DNA of 64,000 nt from Siphonodentalium dalli. Lineage: Eukaryota > Mollusca > Scaphopoda > Gadilida > Siphonodentaliidae. The first letter of the stretch is position 1; the number at the start of each line of letters is the position of its first letter. The stretch spans positions 45,089,835-45,153,834 of the forward strand of contig CP136066.1 in assembly GCA_032622095.1 (NCBI GenBank). The letters run 5' to 3'. The notes beneath the pieces are model-generated. The model saw only the letters and a program-made list of their open reading frames with translations, was not told where the DNA came from and did not search any database. Positions 1,479 through 44,985 of the stretch are shown piece after piece. A program made the position numbers and the translations under genes.

Positions 1479-1505
1479 CAACTTTTTTTGAAGGAGAAAT
1501 ATATA

Positions 1506-2113
1506 AATTGGTGGTGGCTATTGTCAAATAGACGATGAACGACACCCACCAGTGACTTTTTCCAGAAATTAACGATTTTGGCAAAGCGAAGCCTGTGGCT
1601 ATGTCCTAACTTATTTTCCCACATTGTTGGTGTTAAAATTACTACATCATACCATATCTCTACCTGATATGCAAAAGTGTTGGTTCATTTAGATTTTCCT
1701 GCCATTTGGAGCAGAAACATTTATGTTTTGCTGAAAAATCGCTCTTTTTCACAAAAATAATATTGTTCAAACATTATCATTCAAACGTATATTGTAATAA
1801 TGCCGAAATATTTAATCCATATGATGTAGTAGTAATCTGACAAGCATATGAAGAAAGCAGTTAACAGTTAAGTGCGATTTTTCAGCAAAAAATAAATGTT
1901 TCGGCTCCAAATGGCAGGAAAATCGATATTAACAAACAATTTTTTCATATCAGGTATAGAGGTATGGTTTGATTCTCTAATTTTAACCCCAACAATGTTG
2001 GCAAATATGTTAGGACATAGCCACAGGGCTCGCTTTACCAAAATAGTTAATTTCTGGAAAAAGTCACTGGAGGGTATCGCTCATCGTCGATTTGACAATA
2101 GCCACCACCAATT
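1506..2113. mobile_element. Foldback MITE, about 608 bp
   Basis: The ends are inverted repeats starting AATTGGTGGTGGCTATTGTC on the left and ending GACAATAGCCACCACCAATT on the right. The arms run about 240 bp each (1506-1750 and 1870-2113) at roughly 85-90 percent identity by eye, with an AT-rich middle of about 120 bp. No coding capacity. A clear target duplication was not found. The longer frame through the right arm is a by-product of the repeat. Confidence 0.7.
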
Positions 2114-2151
2114 CCGTTATTTTTCACTATCATTTTCGTCAACAGTATATA

Positions 2152-2722
2152 CACTGTCGGATACCCGTTTAGGTTCGGACATTCCAAGATGGCGGCGCCC
2201 ACTAACGCAGATAAACGGTAATTGTATATATTGTCTCCAAGCAGCAATCAACAACATCTTTCGGTGATACACCTTGAAACAGTTATGTAGGAATTTGTAT
2301 GCCCAACACATACGTAACACGCCTTTCGCATGAGAGGCATGTGAATTGTTGTATTTGGCGTGTCAAGTCGTCATAATTTTTAGAAATTTTATCGAGGCGG
2401 CGAAATGTTCGCTTTTTCGTATTTTTCTGGCCCTGGGCTCATGCATCCGCAAATTTATGTATTGTTGTGGGTAGATTAGGTCACCACACATCTTCGGAAT
2501 GCAAAACCGGCGATATTTTTATTGTCTAACTCCGAAAAACGACCTTTGAAATTTTCAAAATGTTCAGGTTCGGATTCGCAACATTCGCAATGATTTTGTT
2601 CAGGTTCAGACATAATTTTCGTTCAGGTTCGGACAAATTTGGTTCAGGTTCGGACGCATCAAAAACTTCGCATAAAAATGACACGCCGAGGTACAGTCGC
2701 GTTCTTATTGCGTTTTTGTGCA
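2152..2722 (+). repeat. Terminal inverted repeat, left outer copy
   Basis: It begins CACTGTCGGATACCCGTTTA, followed by TTCGGACATTCC and the YY1-type AAGATGGCGGC, and ends in a run of TTCAGGTTCGGAC-like units (about five copies, 2565-2660). The same sequence occurs inverted at 18819-19389, directly at 15623-16200, and partly inverted at 14664-15026 and 5377-5547. It is the shared end of every unit in the palindrome. Confidence 0.8.
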
Positions 2723-2837
2723 TTTGGTTATCTTCCATTCGTAAAAGAAACGGTAAATGGGGAACACGAGGCATGGTTTTAGCCCACTCGTGAATAATTT
2801 GGGCGGACTTTCTTATTTTATTCGTGTGAGATGTATG

Positions 2838-3504
2838 CACAGTTGTTGGAAACTTGTCAAAAAAACCGAAAAGATATGTCACCACCACTACTTATTAATA
2901 TAATTGACAAGTAGGGAAAGCTACTGAGCCCACCCATCTCCCATAAAACCATTTCACCGCTCGTTTCGTGTTCAATTGCATCAATAAAACCATTAATTTC
3001 AGAAAAGTACCAATAAAACATATATTTCTTTTCATGTTTACCGTAAGTGCAGTAGAAAATTATCACTTTATAATTACTTTTATCGTATACAACATCCGAA
3101 AACAACTGTGCAACTGTGGGCTGACGATTCCACGAGTCGCCATCCGAGAGTCAAGGGCAGATAATTTCAAATGCTATTATCTGCGCTTGACTCTCGGATG
3201 GCGACTCGTGGAATCAGCGAGCCGCTGTTGTTTGGGAAGTTGTATACGATAAAAGTAATTATAAAGTGATAATTTTCTACTGCACTTACGGTAAACATGA
3301 AAAGAAATATATGTTTTATTACTAGGATGTGGTACTTTTCTGAAATTAATGTTTTTATTGATGCAATTGAACACGAAACGAGCGGTGACATGGTTTGATG
3401 GGAGATGGGTGGGCTCAGTAGCTTTCCCTACTTGTCAATTATATTAATAAGTAGGGGTGGTGACATCTCTTTTCGGGTTTTTTGACAAGTTTCCAACAAC
3501 TGTG
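2838..3504. mobile_element. hAT-like foldback MITE with 8 bp TSD, left arm
   Basis: The ends are CACAGTTGTTGGAAACTTGTC and its inverse, flanked by direct GATGTATG at 2830-2837 and 3505-3512. An 8 bp target duplication and a CA..TG end fit hAT-derived MITEs. The arms are about 330 bp and nearly complementary, with a tight inner stem around 3124-3222 (GATTCCACGAGTCGCCATCC and its inverse). No coding. The mirror copy sits at 18037-18703 with the inverted TSD, so it inserted before the arms were duplicated. Confidence 0.85.
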
Positions 3505-3598
3505 GATGTATGCGATCACTTGATTCCCCTCCACATCCACATACGATGCCACGAAGGTCGCCGCTCGTAGATGAGCAGATAACTGTCCATATTATAAG

Positions 3599-3689
3599 TT
3601 ACACGGCTTTTTAGGGGGATACTGTGTGGTATATGCCCCGGTAGAGGCTCGTATCCCCCGAGGCGATCCCCCATCAACAAGCCGTGTAA
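3599..3689. repeat. Short hairpin element, left arm
   Basis: The ends are TTACACGGCTT and AAGCCGTGTAA, with an inner pair GGGGGATAC/GTATCCCCC around a GGTAGAGGCTC loop. The mirror is at 17852-17942. This resembles other short hairpins here whose loops carry GAGGC/GCCTC (5010-5121, 48863-48958). Function unknown. Confidence 0.5.
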
Positions 3690-3699
3690 TGATGTATTT

Positions 3700-5009
3700 A
3701 CCCCCAGTCTCTATTAACAATATATTCACAGGCATAAAGCGCAGAAACGAGCCACGAACAGTAACTCTATTTTGTTGATTGATTGATTGATTTATTGCAT
3801 AAGTCACATAACAGTGAAACAAGCAAAACGTATATACACTATGTACACATTAGATTATACGATGAATGTGATTATATAGCTGTTCCCACAATTTGCCCAT
3901 AAATACTTGCTGATAGATAGACAATATATACCATGTTTTGTATCAATGATTGGATGATATATTTGGGTATTCACACGAAACATATTCTTTTCAATATAAG
4001 CCTTATGTGTTTTGCCTCATTTCTAAATGTTGAATCCAGTTACAAGTTAACCATTTGTCACACGACTATTATGCAGGACTATTAATTAGAGCCCGAACAT
4101 GTTGCGTTCTATTCAGCACTATGCGAACATAGAGAATACCTATGGTTTGCCGAATAACACCTAATATATTATTCGAGAAACCATATGTGTTCTCTTTATG
4201 TTATGCTTATGGTAAGCATTCTGCAAAACTACAAGTATTTGTTTATCGAAACAAGAATTTAGAAGCCGAAGTAGCGAAACTTATGCAAACAATATCAGCT
4301 GTCCCGTTGGCAAATTAAGCATCTCTAAATTTTGGTGGAAAATTTCCTTCATGCGCTTAAGAGAATAGTGCCTACACAATGGTTCAATATTACACACAGA
4401 AACCCAATTAACAAATAACTGAATACGTAATAAAACGGGATCATTTGTTTTTCTTTAGAACTTATCGCAGTAATAATCTATTTTCAGTCTTCCGCGGAAT
4501 TTCGCGTAGTTCCATTGATAATACACGCGTCAATAATTGTGTACCCTATTTTAAACAGAAGTATCTACAGTGAGATAACGTTTGAAAATTATTATCCATG
4601 CCAACGTCCTGACGAAAGAGAGCGCATCGTATGTCATTTAAAATTACAGCTATTTCATAGGGAAACATATAACAAACAACGCTTGTCCCCACACCCGGTT
4701 GTAACTAGCAATCTGATTGACAACAACGTCACGTTTAAATCATGCACCATGTCCCCGTAACTCTTGACAGTGGGCGTAAAAAGCACGTGAAACATCGTGG
4801 TTATGAATTACCCTTGAACTAGCAGTTTCACCAATCGTGACATTGTTCTAGCGCGCTGATATTAATTGACGTCACCTAAAACAGGATCGATAGGTCTGCT
4901 ACTGAATTATTCTTATTGGTGCTGATTGGTGTGAATTTATCTGATAACCTATAAAAAGCACACCACATGGTAGCTATTGATGTGGGACAAAATCGTTAGC
5001 TCCGCCAAC
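3700..5009. other. Arm segment without recognised gene
   Basis: AT-rich sequence with a GATT/AATC microsatellite near 3778-3792 and no convincing frame; the 81-codon frame at 4515-4760 is preserved in both arms but has no recognisable features. Around 4918-4955 there is ATTGGTGCTGATTGGTG, then CTATAAAAAG, which looks like CCAAT-type and TATA boxes of a plus-strand promoter, with a mirror near 16590. No downstream gene supports it. Confidence 0.35.
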
Positions 5010-5121
5010 ATCGTGGGATACTAGGAGATTTAATACCCGGATGTCTCTTTTTGAAACCCCTTGGCTCCGCCTCGGGGTTCAAAATCGAGAACCAGGTATT
5101 AAATATCCATGTATCCCCGAT
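5010..5121. repeat. Short hairpin element with CTCCGCCTC loop, left arm
   Basis: An imperfect inverted repeat running from ATCGTGGGATAC to GTATCCCCGAT, with inner stem GAAACCCC/GGGGTTC around TTGGCTCCGCCTC. The mirror is at 16419-16530. Confidence 0.5.
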
Positions 5122-5376
5122 ATTTCAGAAGATAAGTATAATACCACTGTTGCTCATATGTAAAATGTAATAATTCCCACTAGCTGGTTTATAGTAGACA
5201 TTTCTCGGGAATATTCAACTATGGCTTTTTTCCCATTAATTCGGAGAATTTACCACCTATATTTGGAAACTTCAGCTGACATATTTAGATATAACAAATT
5301 TAACAATGCATGTTCGTTAATAACACGCACAATAAGATCGCGACTGCACGTCGGCATGTCATTTATAGGTAAGATT

Positions 5377-5547
5377 TTGATGCGTCCGAACCTGAACTAA
5401 AATTGTCCGAACCTGAACCAAATTTGTCCGAACCTGAACGAAAATTGTGTCTGAACCTGAACAAAATCATCGCGAATGTTGCGAATCCGAACCTGAACAT
5501 TTTGAAAATTTCAAAGGTCGTTTTTCGGAGTTAGACAATAAAAATAT
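5377..5547 (-). repeat. Inner inverted copy of TIR repeats, truncated, left arm
   Basis: Five or so TCCGAACCTGAAC-type units are followed by the segment ending AGTTAGACAATAAAAATATC. It is the reverse complement of 2520-2690 and so the start of the inner end of the left flanking unit. It stops at AATATC and joins directly to AGAAGAATAGGGG. On the right arm the corresponding place holds 1.33 kb more (two complete ends and a spacer), so the left arm has lost them by a deletion with short ATAT homology. Confidence 0.7.
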
Positions 5548-5553
5548 CAGAAG

Positions 5554-5627
5554 AATAGGGGCCTCGTTAGCCTCACATCTAAAAATAGAATAGGGGCCTC
5601 GTTAGCCTCACATCTAAAAATAGAATC
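5554..5627. repeat. Tandem duplication, 34-35 bp unit, two copies
   Basis: The unit GAATAGGGGCCTCGTTAGCC followed by TCACATCTAAAAATA is present twice head to tail. The mirror is at about 14585-14655. An AT-rich run with repeated TTTTTTCCAAAAATTA and AATTTCCAAACTTCC phrases follows to about 5860. Confidence 0.6.
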
Positions 5628-6544
5628 TTTGGGGGTCTAAAATTGGTTGTACTAAAATATTCCCAAAATAACAAAACCCAAAAAAAATTTCAAAACTTCA
5701 AAAATTTATTTTTTCCAAAAATTATTTTTTCCAAAAATTATTTTTTCCAAAAAATTTAAAAATTTCCAAACTTCCAAATTATCAAAACCTCAAAATTTCC
5801 AAACTTCCAAATTATCAAAACCCTCAAAATTATTTCTCTAAAAAAAGTTTAAATAAAAAATTTATAACGAGTTTTCGGTTTCTGATAAACTCGATATTAA
5901 AAAATGTCGAATGTTAAATTATTTGCGCGTAATATCTTTCGTAATATTTTTTGTTCAAATATTTTTCAGGAATTTATTAATCGATGTTTAGAAATAGCTT
6001 TATTGGACATTGTGACCATCGATATGAATGCATACATTCCAGTGTTTTATCGGACGCAGTTCATATAATTGTCATACCTGAAAATAGACACCATTACTTT
6101 TACATAAATAATAAAGAGCGTTTATTCTTTACACTCTCTCTATCCCATATGACAGGTGAATTATTGGAAGTTTTGAGATGTACTATGTTCAATCCCTAAC
6201 GGTCGAAAATTGTAATGTGAAATTACAACCCTCCAGAATGAATTGTCATATTCGCTGTACACGCAATCACACGCGACATTGGTGGTAACAATGTGTCTTT
6301 CACACCTTTGCTTTACCAAATAAATTATATTATTTCCCCGGTCACAGTTATATGCTATTCAGAAAACATATCGATTTAATGTCTGAACAAACGGGTTAGT
6401 ATCAATTAAGGTTGATAAACTGTGTCATTCACACGATAATTAGTTAGCCAAAAACATGCATACGTCCAGGACACTCAATTATAGAAATTGCTTTGATGAC
6501 ATTGTTATAACAACATTACGTAATAACCACTTATCGCCCCACAT

Positions 6545-7060
6545 TCATACTTACGCTTTGGACATTTTATCAGTTTATCACGTGATCACTAAATGTGGCA
6601 ATCGGGTATCCACCGATGCCTGCAATATATTATTTATAATAATTGGACTCATTGATCTCACGTGAATAATACTCTTAGTTGTTCCAATAAAATAGTTATC
6701 AAATTCGATCACCAATAGATTTGACTGTGGAATGTAATGACCTTTTAACTTATTTATCGATCTAAAGGGACACTCATTATGAATGAATGTTAACAATACA
6801 AGCGCACGAATGAAGAGCGTTGAACATATACAAAATTACTACACGAATGAATTGAACCTTGAAATTTATATTTCACATCTTACCAACAACAGTTACAGAC
6901 ATAATCATAGTATTATACTGTCTTGCATGTACACACGCTATGACATCATTAAAGGCGGACAATCCACTCACGGTGTGACAACAGATACGGACATAGGCAT
7001 AGTGTTATACAGTCTTCTATGTACCCACGCTATGACACCATTAACGTACATTGGATGTTA
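6545..7060. repeat. Arm-internal repeats A and B, left arm
   Basis: Block A (about 6557-6770, with CACGTGATCAC and CAATCGGGTATCCACCGATG) recurs at 8068-8275. Block B (about 6775-7040, with GAATGAAGAGCGTTGAACAT and ACGCTATGACATCATTAAAG) recurs at 8680-8950 and, shortened, at 8436-8625. The order A-B-minisatellite-A-B-B is mirrored on the right arm (11600-13640). The frames through B are kept in copies only because the copies are young. Confidence 0.6.
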
Positions 7061-7088
7061 GGTCTATGACTCTTGAGTATGCACCAAT

Positions 7089-7787
7089 CAATGAGCAAAT
7101 GAGCAAAAAAATGAGCAAATGAGCAAAAAAATTAGCACATGAGCAAGAAAATGAGCAAATGAGCAAGAAAATGAGCAAGAAAATGAGCAAATGAGCAATA
7201 AAAATGAGCAAATGAGCAAAAAATGAGCAAATGAGCAAGAAAATGAGCAAATGAGCAATAAAATGAGCAAATGAGCAAGAAAATGAGCAAATGAGCAATA
7301 AAAATGAGCAAATGAGCAAAAAAATGAGCAAATGAGCAAGAAAATGAGCAAATGAGCAATAAAAATGAGCAAATGAGCAAAAAAATGAGCAAATGAGCAA
7401 AAAAATGAGCACATGAGCAAGAAAATGAGCAAATGAGCAAGAAAATGAGCAAATGAGCAATAAAAATGAGCAAATGAGCAAAAAAATGAGCAAATGAGCA
7501 AGAAAATGAGCAATAAAATGAGCAAATGAGCAAGAAAATGAGCAATAAAAATGAGCAAATGAGCAAAAAAATGAGCAAATGAGCAAGAAAATGAGCAAAT
7601 GAGCAATAAAAATGAGCAAATGAGCAAAAAAATGAGCAAATGAGCAAGAAAATGAGCAAATGAGCAAGAAAATGAGCAAATGAGTAATAAAAATGAGCAA
7701 ATGAGCAAATAAATGAGCAAATGAGCAAAAAAATGAGCAATAAAATGAGCAAATGAGCAATAAAAATGAGCAAATGAGCAAAAAAAT
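7089..7787. repeat. ATGAGCAA minisatellite, left arm (long allele)
   Basis: Head-to-tail units of about 20 bp, AAATGAGCAAATGAGCAAAA with a variable A/AG/TA spacer. On the minus strand it reads TTGCTCAT repeatedly and stays open in all three frames, giving Leu/Ile/Cys/Ser/Phe/His-rich frames (LLICSF, CSFAHF) that I do not accept as genes. The right-arm allele is about half as long (12773-13107). Confidence 0.85.
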
Positions 7788-9091
7788 GGGGATACCTGTA
7801 TGTAGGCCTATCAGTGGATGAATAGTCTGCCGGAGAAGTACTGTGTAGACAGGTCTTGACGGTAAGAGAGTCAGACGAGAAGTGAAGGCTTGGCTATTAA
7901 AACATAGTAATGCGATAGCGAACATCAAACGAGTCTGCGCACACATATCTGTCAAAAGGATACAATAGCAGTCATTGGTCAATTTATCCCCGGTGTCAGC
8001 TCAGTACCCAATCGGGACGAAGCCGAAGGTCAACTCATTTTTTTTTGTGCTCATTATAGTACGTCACTTGGACATTTTATCAGTTTATCACGTGATCACT
8101 AAATGTGGCAATCGGGTATCCACCGATGCCTGCAATTTATTATTTATAATAATTGGACTCATTGATCTCACGTAAATAATACTCTTAGTTGTTCCAATAA
8201 AATAGTTATCAAATTCGATCACCAATAGATTTGACTGTGGAATATAATGACCTTTAACTTATTTATCGATCTATGTTAGAACATGGTCTTAACAAAAAAC
8301 TTGACCATAACAAAAATTACCTTACATTTATGCATGAATCTAATTAGACCATACGTAAATATTGTCAGCTTATCGTCTGATGAGCAAATCCGATGTTTAT
8401 CAAAAATAGTACAACTTCCAGTTGGTAATTACTCTTACGAATGAAGAGCGTTGAACATATACGAAATTACTACACGAATGAACTGAAATTTATATTTTCA
8501 CATCTTACCAACAACAGATACAGACATAGTCATAGTGTTATACTATCTTACATGTACCCATGCTATGACATCATTCGAAGGGGCAATACACTCAAGGAGT
8601 TAAAGTGACACGAAACAAGGGACGTGATGTAATATTGGTATTTGAATCTTAAAGGAACACAAGACACTCTAAAGGGACACTCATTATGAATGAATGTTAA
8701 CAATACAAGCGCACGAATGAAGAGCGTTGAACATATACAAAATTACTACACGAATGAATTGAACCTTGAAATTTATATTTCACATCTTACCAACAACAGC
8801 TACAGGCATTATCATAGGGTTATACTGTCTTGCATATACACACGCTATGACATCATTAAAGGCGGACAATCCACTCACGGTGTGACAACAGATACAGACA
8901 TAGGCATAGTGTTATACAGTCTTCTATGTACCAATGCTATGACATAATTAAAGGGGGATAATACACGCACGGTGTGGAATGTTAAAGTGACACGCGGTAA
9001 GGGACGTGATGTAATATTGGTGAAACCCCCTCCCCCACTTATAGATATATAACGAAGACGAGAATAACATGTTGATGAAGTTTATTGAAAT

Positions 9092-9694
9092 TTAATCATT
9101 GTCTGAATCTTCGCCCGTTAGATTTACTGCTAAGAGTTTCTTGAATTTTCTCATCGCTTCATCCGCAGCCCATTCATTATTATATCCGTGTTTGGTCAGT
9201 TTGACCATTTTCTTCACGATAGCGTTATGTATGCGGGATGTTTTCAATCGATGCTGGTATTCTATCAATCGTCTGTAACTTTTGAGAAAGAGAGAAAACT
9301 CTGTGTCGATGCGTTCTAGCTGAGCTTTTCCATCATCCTCTTCTCCCGACACGCCCTCTTCTTCCATCAGTTGATCAAACTTATCAGACAATGCTTTCAC
9401 ATCATCGATGACGCGTTTCATCATACTTTTGAATGTGTTCATCTCATTGACGCATCGCGCAGCTTTCTTACGGCCGAATACCGTTCTACTACCGGCGATA
9501 GTATCATCCTCTGAATCTGATAGAGTTCCCCGTTCATCTTCATCTGAATCTAGACCCGCTTCGTCAGATTCATCGGTATCTTCTCCGAAGAGAGTTGGTT
9601 TTGTCTCGGACATAACTCCGTGTTTAATCTGTTTATGTCTTTGTAGATTGTAGTTCGTCGATAAAATAATGCCACATAAATCACACCCGTGCAT
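9092..9694 (-). CDS. Zinc-finger ORF2 of the palindrome, left copy (200 aa)
   Basis: One C2H2 finger at the N terminus (C4, C7, H20, H25; spacing C-x2-C-x12-H-x4-H) is followed by a strongly acidic Asp/Glu/Ser stretch (about 38-75), then a mostly helical, charged region with coiled-coil character and an acidic tail GEDSDND. Its ATG overlaps the last 14 bases of ORF1 in the +1 frame, so the two may be made by frameshift, re-initiation or separate translation. AATAAA lies just past the stop (9081-9086, minus). The right copy differs in at least one residue (Val versus Met in HNAI-KKM). The layout of finger, acidic linker and helical C terminus recalls accessory C2H2 proteins of Polinton/adinto-like elements; that resemblance is inference. 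Likely a nuclear DNA-binding protein encoded by a mobile unit. Confidence 0.65.
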   Translation of the reverse strand: MHGCDLCGIILSTNYNLQRHKQIKHGVMSETKPTLFGEDTDESDEAGLDSDEDERGTLSDSEDDTIAGSRTVFGRKKAARCVNEMNTFKSMMKRVIDDVKALSDKFDQLMEEEGVSGEEDDGKAQLERIDTEFSLFLKSYRRLIEYQHRLKTSRIHNAIVKKMVKLTKHGYNNEWAADEAMRKFKKLLAVNLTGEDSDND

Positions 9695-9771
9695 TATCGC
9701 GAATTATTGGAAGAACCATCACTCTTATAAGTAGTTGTTGTTGTTGTTGTGGCTGATGTGGCTGATGATAC

Positions 9772-9802
<31 letters not shown>

Positions 9803-9890
9803 CTGAAGGTGTGTGTTTAACTTTGATATGACGCTTCAAACTATCTTGCCAAGCATAGACACTTAAGCACTCTTCACATTGATACTTCAT
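9681..9890 (-). CDS. Zinc-finger ORF1 of the palindrome, left copy (69 aa)
   Basis: A small protein starting MKYQCEECLSVYAW. It holds one C2H2 finger (C5, C8, H21, H26), then a glutamine run of 10 from residue 31, HQP repeats, a second short Q run, and a hydrophobic end. A TATA box (TATTTATATA on the plus strand, 9935-9944) lies about 45-54 bases upstream, giving a short leader. Finger spacing and the residues around it match those of ORF2, so the pair may once have been, or may still be, a single two-finger protein read through a +1 shift. The right copy has 12 glutamines here. Confidence 0.6.
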
Positions 9891-10254
9891 TTTCCTATAT
9901 AATCAGTGAAATCGAGCGTTCTTCTATGCACCTATATTTATATAGAACAGAAACAAGGGAAACGTGGTGGACTAGTTAACTAGTTCAGGCTGTCGTTCAC
10001 AACGTCTCTTATTGTTGTTTGTACTGGATACAAATTTATCACATTAGCTACAATACAACCTACCTATCCAAATGTCAATGCAATTATGAGTGATTTCAAT
10101 ATGAACACTCTATTATATAGATATGTGTAACCTGGTGACTGACATGATGATACAGTTATGCACTAAATAATGGACTGCTTAACCACAGCAGAATTATAGG
10201 TAACTTTTCAGGAGTTAGTCGGAAATATGGCTTGTTGCCATTCATCGGAAAGCT

Positions 10255-10290
10255 CTCACCGCCGCCGGCGGCGGCGGCGGCGGCGGTGAG
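10255..10290. repeat. GC-rich hairpin loop at the palindrome centre
   Basis: CTCACC and GGTGAG flank 24 bases of GCC/GGC triplets. The stem continues 6 bp into the run, leaving about 12 bases of GGC repeats as the loop. It is the only GC-rich spot in an AT-rich region. Confidence 0.9.
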
Positions 10291-10600
10291 AGCTTTCCGA
10301 TGAATGGCAACAAGCCATATTTCCGACTAACTCCTGAAAAGTTACCTATAATTCTGCTGTGGTTAAGCAGTCCATTATTTAGTGCATAACTGTATCATCA
10401 TGTCATTCACCAGGTTACACATATCTATATAATAGAGTGTTCATATTGAAATCACTCATAATTGCATTGACATTTGGATAGGTAGGTTGTATTGTAGCTA
10501 ATGTGATAAATTTGTATCCAGTACAAACAACAATAAGAGACGTTGTGAACGACAGCCTGAACTAGTTAACTAGTCCACCACGTTTCCCTTGTTTCTGTTC

Positions 10601-10610
10601 TATATAAATA
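10601..10610 (+). promoter_or_regulatory. TATA box of the right zinc-finger unit
   Basis: TATATAAATA lies 45-54 bases before the ATG of ORF1. With the short leader and the AATAAA after ORF2 it marks a compact transcription unit. The mirror box is at 9935-9944. Confidence 0.6.
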
Positions 10611-10654
10611 TAGGTGCATAGAAGAACGCTCGATTTCACTGATTATATAGGAAA

Positions 10655-10742
10655 ATGAAGTATCAATGTGAAGAGTGCTTAAGTGTCTATGCTTGGCAAG
10701 ATAGTTTGAAGCGTCATATCAAAGTTAAACACACACCTTCAG

Positions 10743-10779
<37 letters not shown>

Positions 10780-10870
10780 GTATCATCAGCCACATCAGCC
10801 ACAACAACAACAACAACTACTTATAAGAGTGATGGTTCTTCCAATAATTCGCGATAATGCACGGGTGTGA
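10655..10870 (+). CDS. Zinc-finger ORF1 of the palindrome, right copy (71 aa)
   Basis: Same protein as the left copy, with one C2H2 finger (C5, C8, H21, H26), but with a 12-residue glutamine run instead of 10. The stop TGA lies inside the start region of ORF2; the overlap 10857-10870 is identical on both arms. Both copies being intact after other arm differences arose suggests either recent duplication or selection. Protein-level function is unknown beyond likely DNA or RNA binding. Confidence 0.6.
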
Positions 10871-11459
10871 TTTATGTGGCATTATTTTATCGACGAACTA
10901 CAATCTACAAAGACATAAACAGATTAAACACGGAGTTATGTCCGAGACAAAACCAACTCTCTTCGGAGAAGATACCGATGAATCTGACGAAGCGGGTCTA
11001 GATTCAGATGAAGATGAACGGGGAACTCTATCAGATTCAGAGGATGATACTATCGCCGGTAGTAGAACGGTATTCGGCCGTAAGAAAGCTGCGCGATGCG
11101 TCAATGAGATGAACACATTCAAAAGTATGATGAAACGCGTCATCGATGATGTGAAAGCATTGTCTGATAAGTTTGATCAACTGATGGAAGAAGAGGGCGT
11201 GTCGGGAGAAGAGGATGATGGAAAAGCTCAGCTAGAACGCATCGACACAGAGTTTTCTCTCTTTCTCAAAAGTTACAGACGATTGATAGAATACCAGCAT
11301 CGATTGAAAACATCCCGCATACATAACGCTATCATGAAGAAAATGGTCAAACTGACCAAACACGGATATAATAATGAATGGGCTGCGGATGAAGCGATGA
11401 GAAAATTCAAGAAACTCTTAGCAGTAAATCTAACGGGCGAAGATTCAGACAATGATTAA
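10857..11459 (+). CDS. Zinc-finger ORF2 of the palindrome, right copy (200 aa)
   Basis: A near-identical partner of 9092-9694: one C2H2 finger (C4, C7, H20, H25), a Ser/Asp/Glu-rich acidic block, a helical Lys/Glu-rich C-terminal half and tail GEDSDND. It is in the +1 frame relative to ORF1 with a 14-base overlap. AATAAA at 11465-11470 follows the TAA by a few bases, so the 3' UTR is very short. No splice sites are needed to read it. Neighbouring arm sequence has no other credible gene. Confidence 0.65.
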   Translation: MHGCDLCGIILSTNYNLQRHKQIKHGVMSETKPTLFGEDTDESDEAGLDSDEDERGTLSDSEDDTIAGSRTVFGRKKAARCVNEMNTFKSMMKRVIDDVKALSDKFDQLMEEEGVSGEEDDGKAQLERIDTEFSLFLKSYRRLIEYQHRLKTSRIHNAIMKKMVKLTKHGYNNEWAADEAMRKFKKLLAVNLTGEDSDND

Positions 11460-11464
11460 ATTTC

Positions 11465-11470
11465 AATAAA
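11465..11470 (+). terminator. Poly(A) signal of the right zinc-finger unit
   Basis: AATAAA lies seven bases after the ORF2 stop. The mirror TTTATT is at 9081-9086. Confidence 0.6.
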
Positions 11471-11599
11471 CTTCATCAACATGTTATTCTCGTCTTCGTT
11501 ATATATCTATAAGTGGGGGAGGGGGTTTCACCAATATTACATCACGTCCCTTACCGCGTGTCACTTTAACATTCCACACCGTGCGTGTATTATCCCCCT

Positions 11600-12560
11600 T
11601 TAATTATGTCATAGCATTGGTACATAGAAGACTGTATAACACTATGCCTATGTCTGTATCTGTTGTCACACCGTGAGTGGATTGTCCGCCTTTAATGATG
11701 TCATAGCGTGTGTATATGCAAGACAGTATAACCCTATGATAATGCCTGTAGCTGTTGTTGGTAAGATGTGAAATATAAATTTCAAGGTTTAATTCATTCG
11801 TGTAGTAATTTTGTATATGTTCAACGCTCTTCATTCGTGCGCTTGTATTGTTAACATTCATTCATAATGAGTGTCCCTTTAGAGTGTCTTGTGTTCCTTT
11901 AAGATTCAAATACCAATATTACATCACGTCCCTTGTTTCGTGTCACTTTAACTCCTTGAGTGTATTGCCCCTTCGAATGATGTCATAGCATGGGTACATG
12001 TAAGATAGTATAACACTATGACTATGTCTGTATCTGTTGTTGGTAAGATGTGAAAATATAAATTTCAGTTCATTCGTGTAGTAATTTCGTATATGTTCAA
12101 CGCTCTTCATTCGTAAGAGTAATTACCAACTGGAAGTTGTACTATTTTTGATAAACATCGGATTTGCTCATCAGACGATAAGCTGACAATATTTACGTAT
12201 GGTCTAATTAGATTCATGCATAAATGTAAGGTAATTTTTGTTATGGTCAAGTTTTTTGTTAAGACCATGTTCTAACATAGATCGATAAATAAGTTAAAGG
12301 TCATTATATTCCACAGTCAAATCTATTGGTGATCGAATTTGATAACTATTTTATTGGAACAACTAAGAGTATTATTTACGTGAGATCAATGAGTCCAATT
12401 ATTATAAATAATAAATTGCAGGCATCGGTGGATACCCGATTGCCACATTTAGTGATCACGTGATAAACTGATAAAATGTCCAAGTGACGTACTATAATGA
12501 GCACAAAAAAAAATGAGTTGACCTTCGGCTTCGTCCCGATTGGGTACTGAGCTGACACCG
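11600..12560. repeat. Arm-internal repeats B-B-A, right arm
   Basis: Mirror of 7980-8950: block B at about 11600-11875, shortened B at about 11930-12112, block A at about 12277-12480. They match the left arm closely. No gene. Confidence 0.6.
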
Positions 12561-12772
12561 GGGATAAATTGACCAATGACTGCTATTGTATCCTTTTGAC
12601 AGATATGTGTGCGCAGACTCGTTTGATGTTCGCTATCGCATTACTATGTTTTAATAGCCAAGCCTTCACTTCTCGTCTGACTCTCTTACCGTCAAGACCT
12701 GTCTACACAGTACTTCTCCGGCAGACTATTCATCCACTGATAGGCCTACATACAGGTATCCCCATTTTTTTG

Positions 12773-13107
12773 CTCATTTGCTCATTTTTATTGCTCATTT
12801 GCTCATTTGCTCATTTTTTTGCTCATTTGCTCATTTTTATTGCTCATTTGCTCATTTTCTTGCTCATTTGCTCATTTTTTTGCTCATTTGCTCATTTTTA
12901 TTGCTCATTTGCTCATTTTCTTGCTCATTTGCTCATTTTATTGCTCATTTGCTCATTTTCTTGCTCATTTGCTCATTTGCTCATTTTTATTGCTCATTTG
13001 CTCATTTTCTTGCTCATTTGCTCATTTTCTTGCTCATTTGCTCATTTTCTTGCTCATGTGCTCATTTTTTTGCTCATTTGCTCATTTTTTTGCTCATTTG
13101 CTCATTG
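12773..13107. repeat. TTTGCTCAT minisatellite, right arm (short allele)
   Basis: Same unit as 7089-7787 in the opposite orientation, but about 335 bp instead of about 699 bp. This is the largest copy-number difference between the arms in the inner part. Confidence 0.85.
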
Positions 13108-13129
13108 ATTGGTGCATACTCAAGAGTCA

Positions 13130-13640
13130 TAGACCTAACATCCAATGTACGTTAATGGTGTCATAGCGTGGGTACATAGAAGACTGTATAACACTATGCC
13201 TATGTCCGTATCTGTTGTCACACCGTGAGTGGATTGTCCGCCTTTAATGATGTCATAGCGTGTGTACATGCAAGACAGTACAATACTATGATTATGTCTG
13301 TATCTGTTGTTGGTAAGATGTGAAATATAAATTTCAAGGTTCAATTCATTCGTGTAGTAATTTCGTATATGTTCAACGCTCTTCATTCGTGCGCTTGTAT
13401 TGTTAACATTCATTCATAATGAGTGTCCCTTTAGATCGATAAATAAGTTAAAAGGTCATTACATTCCACAGTCAAATCTATTGGTGATCGAATTTGATAA
13501 CTATTTTATTGGAACAACTAAGAGTATTATTCACGTGAGATCAATGAGTCCAATGATTATAAATAATATATTGCAGGCATCGGTGGATACCCGATTGCCA
13601 CATTTAGTGATCACGTGATAAACTGATAAAATGTCCAAAG
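13130..13640. repeat. Arm-internal repeats B and A, right arm
   Basis: Mirror of 6557-7060. Block B (13156-13425) and block A (13430-13640) are present in inverted order relative to the left arm. No gene. Confidence 0.6.
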
Positions 13641-14663
13641 CGTAAGTATGAATGTGGGGCGATAAGTGGTTATTACGTAATGTTGTTATAACAATGTCAT
13701 CAAAGCAATTTCTATAATTGAGTGTCCTGGACGTATGCATGTTTTTGGCTAACTAATTATCGTGTGAATGACACAGTTTATCAACCTTAATTGATACTAA
13801 CCCGTTTGTTCAGACATTAAATCGATATGTTTTCTGAATAGCATATAACTGTGACCGGGGAAATAATATAATTCATTTGGTAAAGCAAAGGTGTGAAAGA
13901 CACATTGTTACCACCAATGTCGCGTGTGATTGCGTGTACAGCGAATATGACAATTCATTCTGGAGGGTTGTAATTTCACATTACAATTTTCGACCGTTAG
14001 GGATTGAACATAGTACATCTCAAAACTTCCAATAATTCACGATAATACACACCTGTCATATGGGATAGAGAGAGTGTAAAGAATAAACGCTCTTTATTAT
14101 TTATGTAAAAGTAATGGTGTCTATTTTCAGGTATGACAATTATATGAACTGCGTCCGATAAAACACTGGAATGTATGCATTCATATCGATGGTCACAATG
14201 TCCAATAAAGCTATTTCTAAACATCGATTAATAAATTCATGAAAAATATTTGAACAAAAAATATTACGAAAGATATTACGCGCAAATAATTTAACATTCG
14301 ACATTTTTTAATATCGAGTTTATCAGAAACCGAAAACTCGTTATAAATTTTTTATTTAAACTTTTTTTAGAGAAATAATTTTGAGGGTTTTGATAATTTG
14401 GAAGTTTGGAAATTTTGAGGTTTTGATAATTTGGAAGTTTGGAAATTTTTAAATTTTTTGGAAAAAATAATTTTTGGAAAAAATAATTTTTGGAAAAAAT
14501 AAATTTTTGAAGTTTTGAAATTTTTTTTGGGTTTTGTTATTTTGGGAATATTTTAGTACAACCAATTTTAGACCCCCCAAAGATTCTATTTTTAGATGTG
14601 AGGCTAACGAGGCCCCTATTCTATTTTTAGATGTGAGGCTAACGAGGCCCCTATTCTTCTAAT

Positions 14664-15026
14664 ATCGCCGGTTTTGCATTCCGAAGATGCGTGGTGACCT
14701 AATCTACCCACAACAATACATAAATTTGCGGATGCATGAGCCCAGGGCCAGAAAAATACGAAAAAGCGAACATTTCGCCGCCTCGATAAAATTTCTAAAT
14801 ATTATGACGACTTGACACGCCAAATACAACAATTCACATGCCTCTCATGCGAAAGGCGTGTTACGTATGTGTTGGGCATACAAATTCCTACATAACTGCT
14901 TCAAGGTGTATCACCGAAAGATGTCGTTGATTGCTGCTTGGAGACAATATATACACTTACCGTTTATCTGCTTTAGTGGGCGCCGCCATCTTGGAATGTC
15001 CGAACCTAAACGGGTATCCGACAGTG
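14664..15026 (-). repeat. TIR end of the inner unit, right arm only
   Basis: The reverse complement of 2152-2518, ending CCGACAGTG at 15026, including the YY1-type site. It stops at GCCGGCGATAT, just before the TTCAGGTTCGGAC repeats. With the left counterpart deleted, this shows that 5.55-15.03 kb was once its own unit with the same ends as the flanking unit. Confidence 0.75.
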
Positions 15027-15622
15027 AGTATGGTACGTCATACATAGTATATGAGGAAACTAATAATAAAATGTATAATATATAGTATAGACCGTCCAAT
15101 GCAGCTACGAAATAATAACTGCTGTTTGAGTAGGAACATATTTGACTGTAAACCGGCAAGGTCAGATCTGAGGACCATTCTAAGAATAAATGTTTTGTCA
15201 TTTCCAGAATACCATTTGAATGTAGCCATGACTTGCCCCCAGGATATTTGATGTGATCGAGAATTTGTATGAGAGTTCTTCTTTATTTGTGGTTTTATGG
15301 AGGGGCCCGGGACTGCCATGAGGTGTTTAAAGATTTTGGTGGGTATGTTGTGAGGTGTCACGAAAGGGTGGATAATGATCTAGACATTGTGATAATTTCT
15401 TTTCCTTTTACCTTTTTGGCTTTTGCCATTATTTTGGTAGTGTAGTAGTTGTTTTTGTTCAGGAGCTGGTGGCGTTGGTGGATTTTCTTCAGGAGATCCA
15501 ACGACAGATATATTTCTTTGCTTTAGTGCAGCGGCCAAATCGAAAAAGAGCTCTAGTTTTCGAGATACCCCTACCCACGGTAGAACAAATTAAAACCAAC
15601 TTTTTTTTAAGGAGAAGTATAT
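15027..15622. other. 596 bp spacer between two TIR ends
   Basis: Not palindromic, and absent from the left arm. It separates the end of the inner unit from the start of the flanking unit. Its last 150 bases contain the TPTHGRTN-ending frame and match 1413-1504, the sequence left of the MITE outside the palindrome. It is probably older DNA into which the units inserted. Confidence 0.6.
15450..15595 (+). pseudogene. Possible C-terminal coding remnant ending TPTHGRT, copy 2
   Basis: A frame reads SGAGGVGGFSSGDPTTD, then FSAAAKSKKSSSFRDTPTHG RTN and a stop, with the upstream part degenerate. It parallels copy 1 at 1230-1478. A CACTGTCGG end begins 28 bases past the stop. Family not recognised. 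Confidence 0.35.
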
Positions 15623-16418
15623 CACTGTCGGATACCCGTTTAGGTTCGGACATTCCAAGATGGCGGCGCCCACTAAAGCAGATAAACGGTAAGTGTATAT
15701 ATTGTCTCCAATCAGCAATCAACGACATCTTTCGGTGATACACCTTGAAACAGTTATGTAGGAATTTGTATGCCCAACACATACGTAACACGACTTTCGC
15801 ATGAGAGGCATGTGAATTGTTGTATTTGGCGTGTCAAGTCGTCATAATTTTTAGAAATTTTATCGAGGCGGCGAAATGTTCGCTTTTTCGTATTTTTCTG
15901 GCCCTGGGCTCATGCATCCGCAAATTTATGTATTGTTGTGGGTAGATTAGGTCACCACGCATCTTCGGAATGCAAAACCGGCGATATTTTTATTGTCTAA
16001 CTCCGAAAAACGACCTTTGAAATTTTCAAAATGTTCAGGTTCGGATTCGCAAAATTCGCGATGATTTTGTTCAGGTTCAGACACAATTTTCGTTCAGGTT
16101 CGGACAAATTTGGTTCAGGTTCGGACAATTCTAGTTCAGGTTCGGACGCATCAAAACCTTACCTATAAATGACATGCCGACGTGCAGTCGCGATCTTATT
16201 GTGCGTGTTATTAACGAACATGCATTGTTAAATTTGTTATATCTAAATATGTCAGCTGAAGTTTCCAAATATAGGTGGTAAATTCTCCGAATTAATGGGA
16301 AAAAAGCCATAGTTGAATATTCCCGAGAAATGTCTACTATAAACCAGCTAGTGGGAATTATTACATTTTACACATGAGCAACAGTGCATGGTATTATATA
16401 TTACTTATCTTCTGAAAT

Positions 16419-16530
16419 ATCGGGGATACATGGATATTTAATACCTGGTTCTCGATTTTGAACCCCGAGGCGGAGCCAAGGGGTTTCAAAAAGAGACATC
16501 CGGGTATTAAATCTCCTAGTATCCCACGAT
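16419..16530. repeat. Short hairpin element with CTCCGCCTC-type loop, right arm
   Basis: Mirror of 5010-5121. Confidence 0.5.
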
Positions 16531-17851
16531 GTTGGCGGAGCTAACGATTTTGTCCCACATCAATAGCTACCATGTGGTGTGCTTTTTATAGGTTATCAGA
16601 TAAATTCACACCAATCAGCACCAATAAGAATAATTCAGTAGCAGACCTATCGATCCTGTTTTAGGTGACGTCAATTAATATCAGCGCGCTAGAACAATGT
16701 CACGATTGGTGAAACTGCTAGTTCAAGGGTAATTCATAACCACGATGTTTCACGTGCTTTTTACGCCCACTGTCAAGAGTTACGGGGACATGGTGCATGA
16801 TTTAAACGTGACGTTGTTGTCAATCAGATTGCTAGTTACAACCGGGTGTGGGGACAAGCGTTGTTTGTTATATGTTTCCCTATGAAATAGCTGTAATTTT
16901 AAATGACATACGATGCGCTCTCTTTCGTCAGGACGTTGGCATGGATAATAATTTTCAAACGTTATCTCACTGTAGATACTTCTGTTTAAAATAGGGTACA
17001 CAATTATTGACGCGTGTATTATCAATGGAACTACGCGAAATTCCGCGGAAGACTGAAAATAGATTATTACTGCGATAAGTTCTAAAGAAAAACAAATGAT
17101 CCCGTTTTATTACGTATTCAGTTATTTGTTAATTGGGTTTCTGTGTGTAATATTGAACCATTGGGTAGGCACTATTCTCTTAAGCGCATGAAGGAAATTT
17201 TCCACCAAAATTTAGAGATGCTTAATTTGCCAACGGGACAGCTGATATTGTTTGCATAAGTTTCGCTACTTCGGCTTCTAAATTCTTGTTTCGATAAACA
17301 AATACTTGTAGTTTTGCAGAATGCTTACCATAAGCATAACATAAAGAGAACACATATGGTTTCTCGAATAATATATTAGGTGTTATTCGGCAAACCATAG
17401 GTATTCTCTATGTTCGCATAGTGCTGAATAGAACGCAACATGTTCGGGCTCTTATTAATAGTCCTGCATAATAGTCGTGTGACAAATGGTTAACTTGTAA
17501 CTGGATTCAACATTTAGAAATGAGGCAAAACACATAAGGCTTATATTGAAAAGAATATGTTTCGTGTGAATACCCAAATATATAATCCAATCATTGATAC
17601 AAAACATGGTATATATTGTCTATCTATCAGCAAGTATTTATGGGCAAATTGTGGGAACAGCTATATAATCACATTCATCGTATAATCTAATGCGTACATA
17701 GTGTATATACGTTTTGCTTGTTTCACTGTTATGTGACTTATGCAATAAATCAATCAATCAATCAACAAAATAGAGTTACTGTTCGTGGCTCGTTTCTGCG
17801 CTTTATGCCTGTGAATATATTGTTAATAGAGACTGGGGGGTAAATACATCA

Positions 17852-17942
17852 TTACACGGCTTGTTGATGGGGGATCGCCTCGGGGGATACGAGCCTCTAC
17901 CGGGGCATATACCACACAGTATCCCCCTAAAAAGCCGTGTAA
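17852..17942. repeat. Short hairpin element, right arm
   Basis: Mirror of 3599-3689, with ends TTACACGGCTT/AAGCCGTGTAA. Confidence 0.5.
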
Positions 17943-18036
17943 CTTATAATATGGACAGTTATCTGCTCATCTACGAGCGGCGACCTTCGTGGCATCGTAT
18001 GTGGATGTGGAGGGGAATCAAGTGATCGCATACATC

Positions 18037-18703
18037 CACAGTTGTTGGAAACTTGTCAAAAAACCCGAAAAGAGATGTCACCACCCCTACTTATTAATAT
18101 AATTGACAAGTAGGGAAAGCTACTGAGCCCACCCATCTCCCATCAAACCATGTCACCGCTCGTTTCGTGTTCAATTGCATCAATAAAAACATTAATTTCA
18201 GAAAAGTACCACATCCTAGTAATAAAACATATATTTCTTTTCATGTTTACCGTAAGTGCAGTAGAAAATTATCACTTTATAATTACTTTTATCGTATACA
18301 ACTTCCCAAACAACAGCGGCTCGCTGATTCCACGAGTCGCCATCCGAGAGTCAAGCGCAGATAATAGCATTTGAAATTATCTGCCCTTGACTCTCGGATG
18401 GCGACTCGTGGAATCGTCAGCCCACAGTTGCACAGTTGTTTTCGGATGTTGTATACGATAAAAGTAATTATAAAGTGATAATTTTCTACTGCACTTACGG
18501 TAAACATGAAAAGAAATATATGTTTTATTGGTACTTTTCTGAAATTAATGGTTTTATTGATGCAATTGAACACGAAACGAGCGGTGAAATGGTTTTATGG
18601 GAGATGGGTGGGCTCAGTAGCTTTCCCTACTTGTCAATTATATTAATAAGTAGTGGTGGTGACATATCTTTTCGGTTTTTTTGACAAGTTTCCAACAACT
18701 GTG
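18037..18703. mobile_element. hAT-like foldback MITE with 8 bp TSD, right arm
   Basis: Ends CACAGTTGTTGG/CCAACAACTGTG, flanked by CATACATC at 18029-18036 and 18704-18711, the inverse of the left-arm TSD. Mirror of 2838-3504. Confidence 0.85.
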
Positions 18704-18818
18704 CATACATCTCACACGAATAAAATAAGAAAGTCCGCCCAAATTATTCACGAGTGGGCTAAAACCATGCCTCGTGTTCCCCATTTACCGTTTCTTTTAC
18801 GAATGGAAGATAACCAAA

Positions 18819-19389
18819 TGCACAAAAACGCAATAAGAACGCGACTGTACCTCGGCGTGTCATTTTTATGCGAAGTTTTTTATGCGTCCGAACCTGAACC
18901 AAATTTGTCCGAACCTGAACGAAAATTATGTCTGAACCTGAACAAAATCATTGCGAATGTTGCGAATCCGAACCTGAACATTTTGAAAATTTCAAAGGTC
19001 GTTTTTCGGAGTTAGACAATAAAAATATCGCCGGTTTTGCATTCCGAAGATGTGTGGTGACCTAATCTACCCACAACAATACATAAATTTGCGGATGCAT
19101 GAGCCCAGGGCCAGAAAAATACGAAAAAGCGAACATTTCGCCGCCTCGATAAAATTTCTAAAAATTATGACGACTTGACACGCCAAATACAACAATTCAC
19201 ATGCCTCTCATGCGAAAGGCGTGTTACGTATGTGTTGGGCATACAAATTCCTACATAACTGTTTCAAGGTGTATCACCGAAAGATGTTGTTGATTGCTGC
19301 TTGGAGACAATATATACAATTACCGTTTATCTGCGTTAGTGGGCGCCGCCATCTTGGAATGTCCGAACCTAAACGGGTATCCGACAGTG
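18819..19389 (-). repeat. Terminal inverted repeat, right outer copy
   Basis: Reverse complement of 2152-2722, with the YY1-type site near 19343-19355 and the TCCGAACCTGAAC units at about 18888-18980. Confidence 0.8.
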
Positions 19390-19452
19390 ATACTACTCTT
19401 TTCGATTCTACAAATGTTCGATTTGGATGACAATAACTATACTCTAAATTAC

Positions 19453-19528
19453 GATTGGGGGTCCATTCTTTCGATGAACCGTGGTGTACAGATTGGGGGT
19501 CCATTCTTTCGATGAACCGTGGTGTACA
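19453..19528 (+). repeat. Tandem duplication, 38 bp unit, two copies
   Basis: GATTGGGGGTCCATTCTTTC followed by GATGAACCGTGGTGTACA is repeated exactly, just outside the right end of the palindrome. Confidence 0.9.
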
Positions 19529-19737
19529 GAGTGTAACTATTGATAATCACCACACGAATTATAGACTTATGTGAACCTTATTTGGTGGGAATACAGAGAG
19601 TATATACACCTAATTTGATAATAAAACAAAAATAAATTAAAAACCACAGCTACCCTCAAGTGAGTACTTTAACTTTGGTTCGTTAATTATAACTAGTGTA
19701 TGGTCATATTAAATATTTAGCATCACTAATAAGTATA

Positions 19738-20254
19738 CAAGAAAACCATAGTCAGAAATGGTAACACCACCAAGCTCATATCATTAGCCACAAATATAAA
19801 TTATAATATAAAATATATTGTTTACATGAATTCACCGGCTCAGAATTCCGTTAAAACAACTAATCCTTCAAATTATTACCAAAAAAATACGGCTTATTAC
19901 TGCAGGTTTCTCATTCACCACACCAGAAAGCTTCTAAATGCGGATACAAAATCGGAGGTATTGACTATTGTGTTCCCGCCAAGAGTGTATGGCCCAGTCA
20001 TTGTTCATACCTAAACGTCGAAAGCAATTAACGCGGTCATAACGGTTACATACTGCAACTATAAGATCATCCGGCGAATACACACCCCACGAAAAAAAAC
20101 CACGAATGTGTTTGCTTTTGCGCTGCGAGATATCCCATCGCTATAGCTCAATTTGACACGGCCAGATTAGCTTTTCTACAATATCCTAAAACAATAAAGC
20201 TTCTCAAATCACTGGCATTGTCAATAGAACTTTCACGAATTTGTACATTCCAGC
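19738..20254 (+). repeat. Interspersed family R1, copy 1, with LINE remnant
   Basis: Direct repeat of 20345-20700, inverted at 33236-33758, and weaker at 58650-58915. Shared phrases are GAATTCCGTTAAAACAACTA and GCAGGTTTCTCATTCACCAC. The end at 20160-20250 encodes KASQITGIVNRTFTNL in one frame, the same as part of the L2-like LINE at 33250-33350, so the family carries LINE-derived sequence. Confidence 0.7.
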
Positions 20255-32755: not shown

Positions 32756-33350
32756 TTACTTGCCGTTGAACTCGTATTTTATATAATAGAAGAATGAGTC
32801 TATGTATATTTTGAATTTATCGAGTGTTGGAGCCTCAACAGCGAAGTCTGGCAAAGAGTTCCATCTATTTACCACCCTCTGCATGCGTGAAGAAATCATT
32901 CCCTATGCCATTGTTAACAGTACGCATCTGTAGCTTTTTATTATGTTCGCTTGTTCTTATTGACGAATTTCTTTCTAATATGTCACAGGCATTGATATTG
33001 TAATGACCATTAAACAGTTTATATACCTCGATTACATCTCCTCTAAACATTCTATATTTTAAATACATCAGATTTAGTCTTATCATTCGGTCTCGGTAGC
33101 ATAGAGTTTGGATTTGACGAACTAGTTTCGTTGCTTTTTGTATTTTCTCTGACACAATGCTTTGACATTTGTGATGTGGGGTCCATGCAGAGTTACAGTA
33201 TTCGATGATAGGTCTGACCATGCTTATGTAGAGCGATCGGAAAGTGTCGATGTCCAAGTTCGTAAAAGTTCTATCGACTATGCCGATGATTTGAGAAGCT
33301 TTATTGTTTTAGGATATTGTAGGAAGGCTAATCTGGCCATGTCAAATTGA
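32756..33350 (-). pseudogene. L2/CR1-like LINE, 3' end of ORF2, frameshifted
   Basis: Minus-strand frames give IVDRTFTNLDIDTFRSLY, then VRPIIEYCNSAWTP, EKIQKATKLV, LKYRMFRGDVIEVYKL, and after a one-base shift near 32875 RVVNRWNSLPDFAVEAPTL and a stop at 32756-32758. This is the usual C-terminal part of L2/CR1 ORF2 after the reverse transcriptase core. A frame break also lies near 33290. 5'-truncated; dead copy. Confidence 0.8.
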
Positions 33351-33758
33351 GCTATAGCGATGTGATATCTCACAGGGAAACACATTTCGGGTTTTCGGGG
33401 GTGCGTATTCGCTGAATTGATCATTTCAATATGTAACCATTATGACAGCGTTAATTGCTTTCGATGTTTTGATATGAACAATGGCTGGGCCACTTTTGAA
33501 GATGTTATGGCGGGAACAGAATGCCTCCGGTTTTTGATCCGCATTTAGAGGTGTGGTGAATGAGAAACCTGCAGCAATAAGCCGTAGTTTTTTGTAATAA
33601 TTTGAAGGATTAGTTGTTTTAACGGAATTCTGAGGCGGTGCATTCATGCAACCAATATATTTTATATATTGTTTTATAATTTATATTTATGCCTAATAAT
33701 ATGATCTTGAGGGCGTTACCATTTCTGACTATGGTTTTCTTGTATGATATGATAACGC
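33236..33758 (-). repeat. Interspersed family R1, copy 3 (inverted)
   Basis: Reverse complement of 19738-20254, including the shared LINE-derived end. It stops a few bases from the donor of the PAN/apple exon. Confidence 0.7.
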
Positions 33759-41543: not shown

Positions 41544-41591
41544 AATTTCTAGAGTGTGGCGATTTAATATGTTCTTTAATTTCCGTAACTG

Positions 41592-44975: not shown

Positions 44976-44985
44976 TATCCTGCAG

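Follow-up and report, generated by a model that had tools for sequence, protein, structure and literature searches.

The window analysed here is a 64,000-nt stretch of the Siphonodentalium dalli genome (GCA_032622095.1, CP136066.1:45,089,835-45,153,834, forward strand), in which positions 2152-19389 form a 17-kb inverted repeat. Relatives of its parts were searched for in the whole 2.23-Gb assembly (9 contigs). Self-comparison showed that the two halves of the region are inverted repeats of each other about 10272/10273, except for a unique spacer and unequal repeats, confirming the fold around 10272 with near-identical arms that a first-pass annotation had reported. The identical outer ends described there were also found, with CACTGTCGG at both ends of 2152-19389. 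However, the junction sequences indicate that the inverted repeat, which is real, is a composite of three insertions and not the single 17-kb element that had been proposed.

Specifically, CACTGTCGG marks the ends of two oppositely oriented copies, E1 and E2, of a common repeat (E), a different transposon from the palindromic element P that it hosts (Table 1). E1 is interrupted by P, with the 6-bp duplication AATATC at both edges of P, and E2 carries an unoccupied AAAAATATCGCCGG, which represents the empty site for P. The idea of a mobile element made up wholly of inverted repeat was therefore retained, whereas its limits and ends were replaced: the element is 9.1 kb long, with AGAAG...CTTCT termini and a 6-bp target-site duplication (TSD). 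Additionally, what had been taken for a 1.33-kb arm-specific segment consists of the end of E1 (14667-15026), the spacer (15027-15622) and the start of E2 (from 15623).

E1 and E2 are inverted copies of a repeat of ~3.77 kb, separated by 16 substitutions and 14 gap columns in alignment slices that overran the ends by 1-4 bases. The own flanks of E1 (ATATA/AGTAT) and E2 (TATAT/ATACT) do not match, but they pair crosswise as reverse complements (ATATA/TATAT and AGTAT/ATACT), suggesting that the spacer was flipped by recombination between two independent inverted E insertions. An origin of E1 and E2 as a duplication produced together with P was rejected, because the crosswise flanks fit this spacer inversion.

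The arms of P differ by 15 substitutions over 4,369 aligned columns and by 7 indels, 4 of them inside a minisatellite, and also in the length of a glutamine run; the differences in minisatellite length, Q-run length and single positions noted in the first-pass annotation were thus all recovered. In both arms, a 200-aa C2H2 open reading frame (ORF) reads outward from the centre, as had been stated for the gene copies, with a short C2H2 and polyglutamine (polyQ) ORF upstream. The C2H2 finger scores were below the Pfam cut-offs, and searches with the C2H2 ORF gave no useful relatives in the protein database or in PHROGs (best E in the latter, 0.015). A 92% copy of the 107-bp repeat adjoining the fold point stands alone at another locus (L016).

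Table 1 Features of the composite inverted repeat in the window
Feature	Positions	Strand	Basis or remark
E1, first part; CACTGTCGG element, host of P, outside P proper	2152..5548	+	
Left 6-bp TSD, AATATC	5543..5548	+	empty site in E2
P, palindromic element, 9,112 bp, AGAAGAATAGGGG...CCCCTATTCTTCT	5549..14660	.	junctions, arm alignment, relatives with the same kind of ends
P left arm, 4,724 bp	5549..10272	+	
35-bp tandem repeat, left terminus of P	5552..5626	+	
ATGAGCAA-type minisatellite, left arm	7090..7788	+	
C2H2 zinc-finger ORF, 200 aa, left arm	9092..9694	-	
Short C2H2 and polyQ ORF (MKYQCEEC...), left arm	9681..9890	-	
107-bp repeat adjoining the fold point	10151..10257	+	mirrored at 10288-10394
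Fold point, GC-rich CGG hairpin, 75-nt stem	10236..10310	.	predicted fold, -51.4 kcal/mol (DNA parameters)
P right arm, 4,388 bp	10273..14660	-	
Short C2H2 and polyQ ORF, right arm	10655..10870	+	
C2H2 zinc-finger ORF, 200 aa, right arm	10857..11459	+	
Minisatellite, right arm, shorter	12763..13106	-	
35-bp tandem repeat, right terminus of P	14583..14657	-	
Right 6-bp TSD, AATATC	14661..14666	+	
E1, last part	14667..15026	+	
Unique spacer between E1 and E2, 596 bp	15027..15622	.	probably inverted
E2, uninterrupted inverted copy of E	15623..19389	-	holds the empty site for P

Termini, fold points and arms of related copies

A 24-base tag from the P end had 12 exact matches genome-wide (6 on each strand; reversed control, 0), of which two lie in P and the rest at five further loci. 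Both ends, with a 6-bp TSD, were found at four of these loci: C3 (GGTATC), C6b (TATAAG), C7 (TATATG) and C9 (CTCGTT; 9,993 bp). Three more copies were found later by their genes or hairpin, with the TSDs TTAGAC (8,498 bp, ATPase-type), CAGATA (10,140 bp) and CACAGA (10,009 bp); for the latter two, only the ends and inverted gene pairs were observed. Perfect 6-bp TSDs were therefore present in all eight copies in which both ends were found, window included. The same eight have AGAAG...CTTCT termini, four of the seven outside the window having been located by an AGAAG-type end, which was also used in the end search for the later three. In none of the eight does the symmetry continue past the terminus of the element, and apart from the TSD the printed flanks (~20-25 bases per side) are different. 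As to other copies with the same ends and centre, which the first-pass annotation had suggested looking for, P-type ends and hairpins do recur, and CACTGTCGG ends belong to E.

C9 is palindromic over its full length (98.9% across 9,993 bp). C7 contains 5,000 N in its middle, and its arms match each other outside this stretch. C3 has a second left end, which we attribute to a local duplication because its flank is identical. Only one end was found in two copies, C5 and C1:14190875 (left end). The left end of C5 is lost, and this copy is joined to an older palindromic copy that is 88% similar and whose own arms are in parts 95-96% alike; the fusion, at about C5:15464965 (L023/L031), arose through loss of intervening arm sequence. 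Centres of 1.4-2.1 kb that seemed unique to some copies turned out to be inner-arm types missing from the window copy. Near the hairpin, C9 carries a terminal-like segment in each arm and C5 in one arm only, whereas neither arm of C6b has it. At the C9 centre (L029), the outer terminal sequence is repeated next to the hairpin without a change of orientation (79% over 193 bp).

Of five centres folded, four (C3, C5, C6b and C9) have a GC-rich stem (GCATTGC.GTATTTTACTGC with its complement) topped by two small hairpins, for which thermodynamics predicts a T shape. A 23-base tag containing the stem had 352 exact matches genome-wide (control, 0). From the 100 matches listed, 27 sites on contig C1 were sampled, two of them (L056 and L057) 7.5 kb apart. 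With a test fixed on the centre (inverted match of at least 200 bp and at least 80% identity), 22 of the 27 sites were palindromic, whereas none of 27 random points, taken in the window outside 1500-20000 and 52300-56000, gave such a match. Two sites that failed this test (L034 and L042) nevertheless lie in long palindromes with the motif off centre, raising the count to 24 of 27. On this count, we rejected the possibility that the hairpin at the fold point is just an unrelated repeat of the genome that P contains by chance. Additionally, at least three types of inner arm adjoin the hairpin: the window type, the C9 type and one near arm position 2240-3340.

Within copies, the arms differ by 0.09-0.45% in three arm segments, a range from which segment A of C7 (12% between left and right) was dropped because its left-arm slice extended into other sequence. 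Between copies, the difference was 0.8-2.8% in segment A (3.5-4.3% for the C7 right arm), 0.55-1.56% in segment B and 0.6-1.2% in segment C, with the window copy standing apart from the others by 5.9-6.8%. In a tree of segments A and B, from which C7 and the C3 duplicate were left out, the left and right arms were sisters with support of 90-100 for the window copy, C3, C6b and C9; the segment B tree gave the same result for these four and for C7. In the inner segment, 45 sites are common to both window arms and occur in no other copy. Because arms agree more within copies than between them, each palindrome largely goes back to a single arm, which was either copied ahead of insertion or imposed on the other arm afterwards by gene conversion.

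Packaging ATPase and size of the family

At six loci (L033, L037, L038, L039, L041 and L042), both arms carry an ORF with an N-terminal C2H2 finger, polyQ and a Walker-A ATPase (GPTSCGKT or a close variant); L038 is frame-broken, several ORFs overrun the 3-kb loci, and one L033 arm was shown without the N-terminus. In L033, L038, L041 and L042, the start of the short C2H2 and polyQ ORF continues into the ATPase ORF, whereas the window copy is without the ATPase domain. The ATPase matched Pox_A32 of Pfam with 26.9 bits (cut-off, 22.8) and, judged by sequence, is A32-like, of the viral packaging ATPase class. The IMG/VR scan returned nothing useful for it, NCBIfam matches were far below their cut-offs, and the best match among Protein Data Bank sequences (E 0.0092) fell within low-complexity or zinc-finger stretches. 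A second ORF of 107 aa, MSIPYIP (MSIPYIPADLEMWRKHF...), occurs in both arms of several copies (L025:6719-7039 and 7542-7862) and had no relative in the protein database, no Pfam match and nothing in PHROGs.

A 30-base ATPase tag had 798 matches in the genome (390 + 408; control, 0). Among the 98 listed on C1, 70 form 35 pairs less than 8 kb apart, compared with a random expectation of 0.28 neighbours, and all 35 pairs are divergent. The exact hairpin motif is contained in 18 of these pairs, 16 of which have it at 0.43-0.52 of the interval. In addition, a 629-bp gene segment of the window had at least 40 full-length matches with a printed identity of 100% (best 40 of 1,841 candidates), and 30 of these 40 form 15 inverted pairs when the list is read by eye. 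The tag counts, the divergent pairs and the 100% matches indicate that the family is numerous and recent, with copy numbers resting on exact short tags. A few hundred such palindromes seem to exist in the genome, as extrapolated from the 35 tagged pairs on the 277-Mb contig C1 of 2,227 Mb.

Open PolB frames of the Polinton type are abundant in the genome, mostly of ~950 or ~1,310 aa (best 69 of 1,596 candidates), and nearly all those among the matches listed are free of inner stops. The frames listed on C1 are, by eye, not near the ATPase tags listed there.

Mobilisation and relation to known elements

We regard P as probably a non-autonomous, Polinton-related transposon, whose monomer has one integrase-type end and one hairpin end and which integrates as a dimer copied through the hairpin. 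The 6-bp TSD and the AG...CT ends point to a Polinton-type integrase: Polintons are described as having 6-bp TSDs (PMC10045372), and Mavericks as having 6-bp TSDs and AG/CT-type end motifs (PMC8097293). A hairpin lying at the axis suggests that copying ran through a closed end, in the way that an unnicked hairpin of adeno-associated virus (AAV) is copied through to give head-to-head or tail-to-tail duplex dimers (PMC1131931). We use the terms 'Polinton-related' and 'non-autonomous' because no PolB frame was seen in P or in the one ATPase-type arm read, while PolB frames occur elsewhere in the genome.

From the structure observed, we infer the following mechanism and helper. The mobile form would be a linear monomer of ~4-6 kb with one integrase-type terminus and one covalently closed hairpin. 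Replication would pass through the hairpin, as in the unresolved AAV duplex dimer, giving a dimer that bears an integrase-type terminus at each end and that a Polinton integrase supplied in trans would insert. Resident Polintons would supply replication as well, the open PolB frames being possible helpers. Since a one-ended monomer could not be inserted by both ends and a palindromic dimer could, the integrated copies would be dimers. Copying through the hairpin would also place most structural changes in both arms, and forms with internal deletions could survive if they kept the outer terminus and the hairpin, like defective-interfering genomes. More tentatively, and with somewhat less confidence than doubt, P may be a chimeric replicon that combines a parvovirus-like hairpin telomere with a Polinton-type integrase terminus, integrates only as a dimer and parasitises resident Polintons. 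It would then be dimerisation that gives the element its two integrase-competent ends, and symmetry would consequently be renewed in each transposition cycle.

Several observations weigh against the preferred, Polinton-related explanation. No frame for PolB, integrase or capsid was found among the ORFs of at least 60 aa in P, absence being judged by frame length and Pfam being run only on the two C2H2 ORFs, and the one ATPase-type right arm read, that of the 8,498-bp copy (L041, L069), shows, apart from the ATPase, no frame of the size of PolB or an integrase. These absences lower the case that P is a Polinton, but not the case that it moves like one. The free hairpin-ended monomer is hypothetical, as is any nick site. 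In the window copy, the hairpin is a plain CGG one without a T shape, and the older copy fused to C5 folds at (AAC)n(CGG)n within the zinc-finger gene; a T shape is therefore not required. Three of the sampled hairpin sites depart from the pattern: L055 and L056 show partial symmetry only, and L058 is not palindromic. In C3, the right arm is longer than the left and the surroundings of the hairpin are asymmetric, and the C5 left arm is without a segment near the hairpin that the right arm has. Of the ATPase tags listed on C1, 28 of 98 are without a partner within 8 kb; among six such single tags examined, one was palindromic and five were not locally so, L068 having only a 74-bp inverted repeat. 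Finally, C9 and C5 differ by only 0.20-0.37% in segment A, which is inside the within-copy range, and the C6b arms are not sisters in the inner-segment tree.

An ordinary foldback transposon, in which the whole palindrome is mobile with no hairpin-ended monomer and gene conversion keeps the arms alike before or after insertion, seems unlikely to us. Elements with very long inverted repeats are on record (Tetris and Galileo), and gene conversion would likewise keep the arms similar. However, this explanation does not account for the GC-rich hairpin fold in all six copies not picked by the hairpin (window, C3, C5, C6b, C9 and the older C5 copy), for the joining of the hairpin to at least three inner-arm types, or for structures near the fold that match between arms in C9 and C6b, though not in C5. 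We consider it still less probable that a non-Polinton transposase, also making 6-bp duplications, mobilises the element. TSD length and short termini alone leave the superfamily undefined, and no transposase-sized frame was seen in P; on the other hand, related copies carry the A32-like packaging ATPase expected for Polinton-type elements, and PolB frames are numerous in the genome.

The remaining two explanations can practically be dismissed. Inverted-duplication reads and missed adapters can create palindromes in an assembly or library. In all eight copies, however, the symmetry stops at the terminus, between different flanks that share only the TSD, and the two window arms are set apart by minisatellite length and by point changes. 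The first-pass argument against a simple assembly fold-back is upheld. A single 17-kb palindromic element ending in CACTGTCGG would agree with outer arms that are inverted copies 16 substitutions apart, but E stands alone elsewhere with its own TSDs, and the empty site of P in E2 and the independent P copies, which have other flanks, already refute this explanation.

Compared with known systems, the probable Polinton-related transposon shares with Polintons/Mavericks the 6-bp TSD, the AG...CT ends, the A32-like ATPase in related copies and the PolB frames in the same genome. Unlike them, its family is 8.5-12 kb long and palindromic, carries its genes twice and showed no frame for PolB, integrase or capsid. 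For intact vertebrate Mavericks, lengths of 12.7-24.6 kb and terminal inverted repeats (TIRs) of 46-1,447 bp are given, and the ends quoted for them are (AG)3 or (AGT)2, not the AGAAG...CTTCT of P (PMC8097293). The AAV duplex dimer is similarly head-to-head, with a T-shaped hairpin sequence at the symmetry axis (PMC1131931), a shape predicted for C3, C5, C6b and C9 but not for the window copy. Unlike it, the P family has no identified Rep, parvovirus gene or terminal-resolution site and occurs as many integrated copies with 6-bp TSDs. No large Rep/NS1-type frame (HUH, SF3) was seen in P or L069 by frame size, no dedicated profile search having been made. Bidnaviruses provide a precedent for combining parvovirus and Polinton parts, although their terminal repeats form no parvovirus hairpins (PMC4061559).

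Foldback (FB)/Galileo elements resemble P in their very long, internally repetitive inverted repeats. They have a central region between the repeats and TSDs of 7-9 bp. The P family has only a hairpin between its arms, its TSDs are 6 bp in eight of eight copies, and P lacks a frame of the size of the P-superfamily transposase by which Galileo is classed. In palindromic defective adenovirus genomes, one genome end of a protein-primed replicon is symmetrically duplicated; the literature search returned nothing relevant on them. Foldback transposons, Polintons and AAV dimers have some features in common with P, and none is known with the whole layout. Similarly, no description of palindromic Polinton-type elements was found in titles and beginnings of abstracts among the papers listed, and within that literature the first-pass statement that no such family had been described holds.

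If the proposed mechanism is true, the element would join Polinton-type integration with parvovirus-like hairpin copying, and the family would consist of satellites of virus-like transposons with a built-in route from one transposable end to two. Long chromosomal palindromes are expected to be unstable, and the copies would offer natural material for studying their tolerance by cells.

The E repeat and other features of the window

The 16-base E end had 909 matches in the genome (454 + 455; reversed control, 0 and 1). Perfect 5-bp TSDs were present at six of the seven other E loci having both ends, one of the six (L009) being only 84% like E, and the seventh has inverted flanks. E has TIRs of ~500 bp, and E2 holds an internal 690-bp inverted repeat. 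The CAC termini and 5-bp TSDs of E presumably recall Transib elements. An E copy lies at C1 2045031-2048077, among the end-tag sites. In L010 (479-7125), a 6.6-kb unit with E ends has flanks that are mutually reverse-complementary (GGGTAA/TTACCC), for which reason it is perhaps inside a larger inverted repeat.

Elsewhere in the window, long ORFs on the minus strand at 41172-45648 resemble, by eye, the reverse transcriptase of non-LTR retrotransposons. Tandem repeats of ~174 bp occupy 52812-55451 and switch strand at ~54450, forming two arrays in inverted orientation. Additionally, dispersed inverted repeat copies with 82% identity are located at 19735-20248 and 33250-33745.

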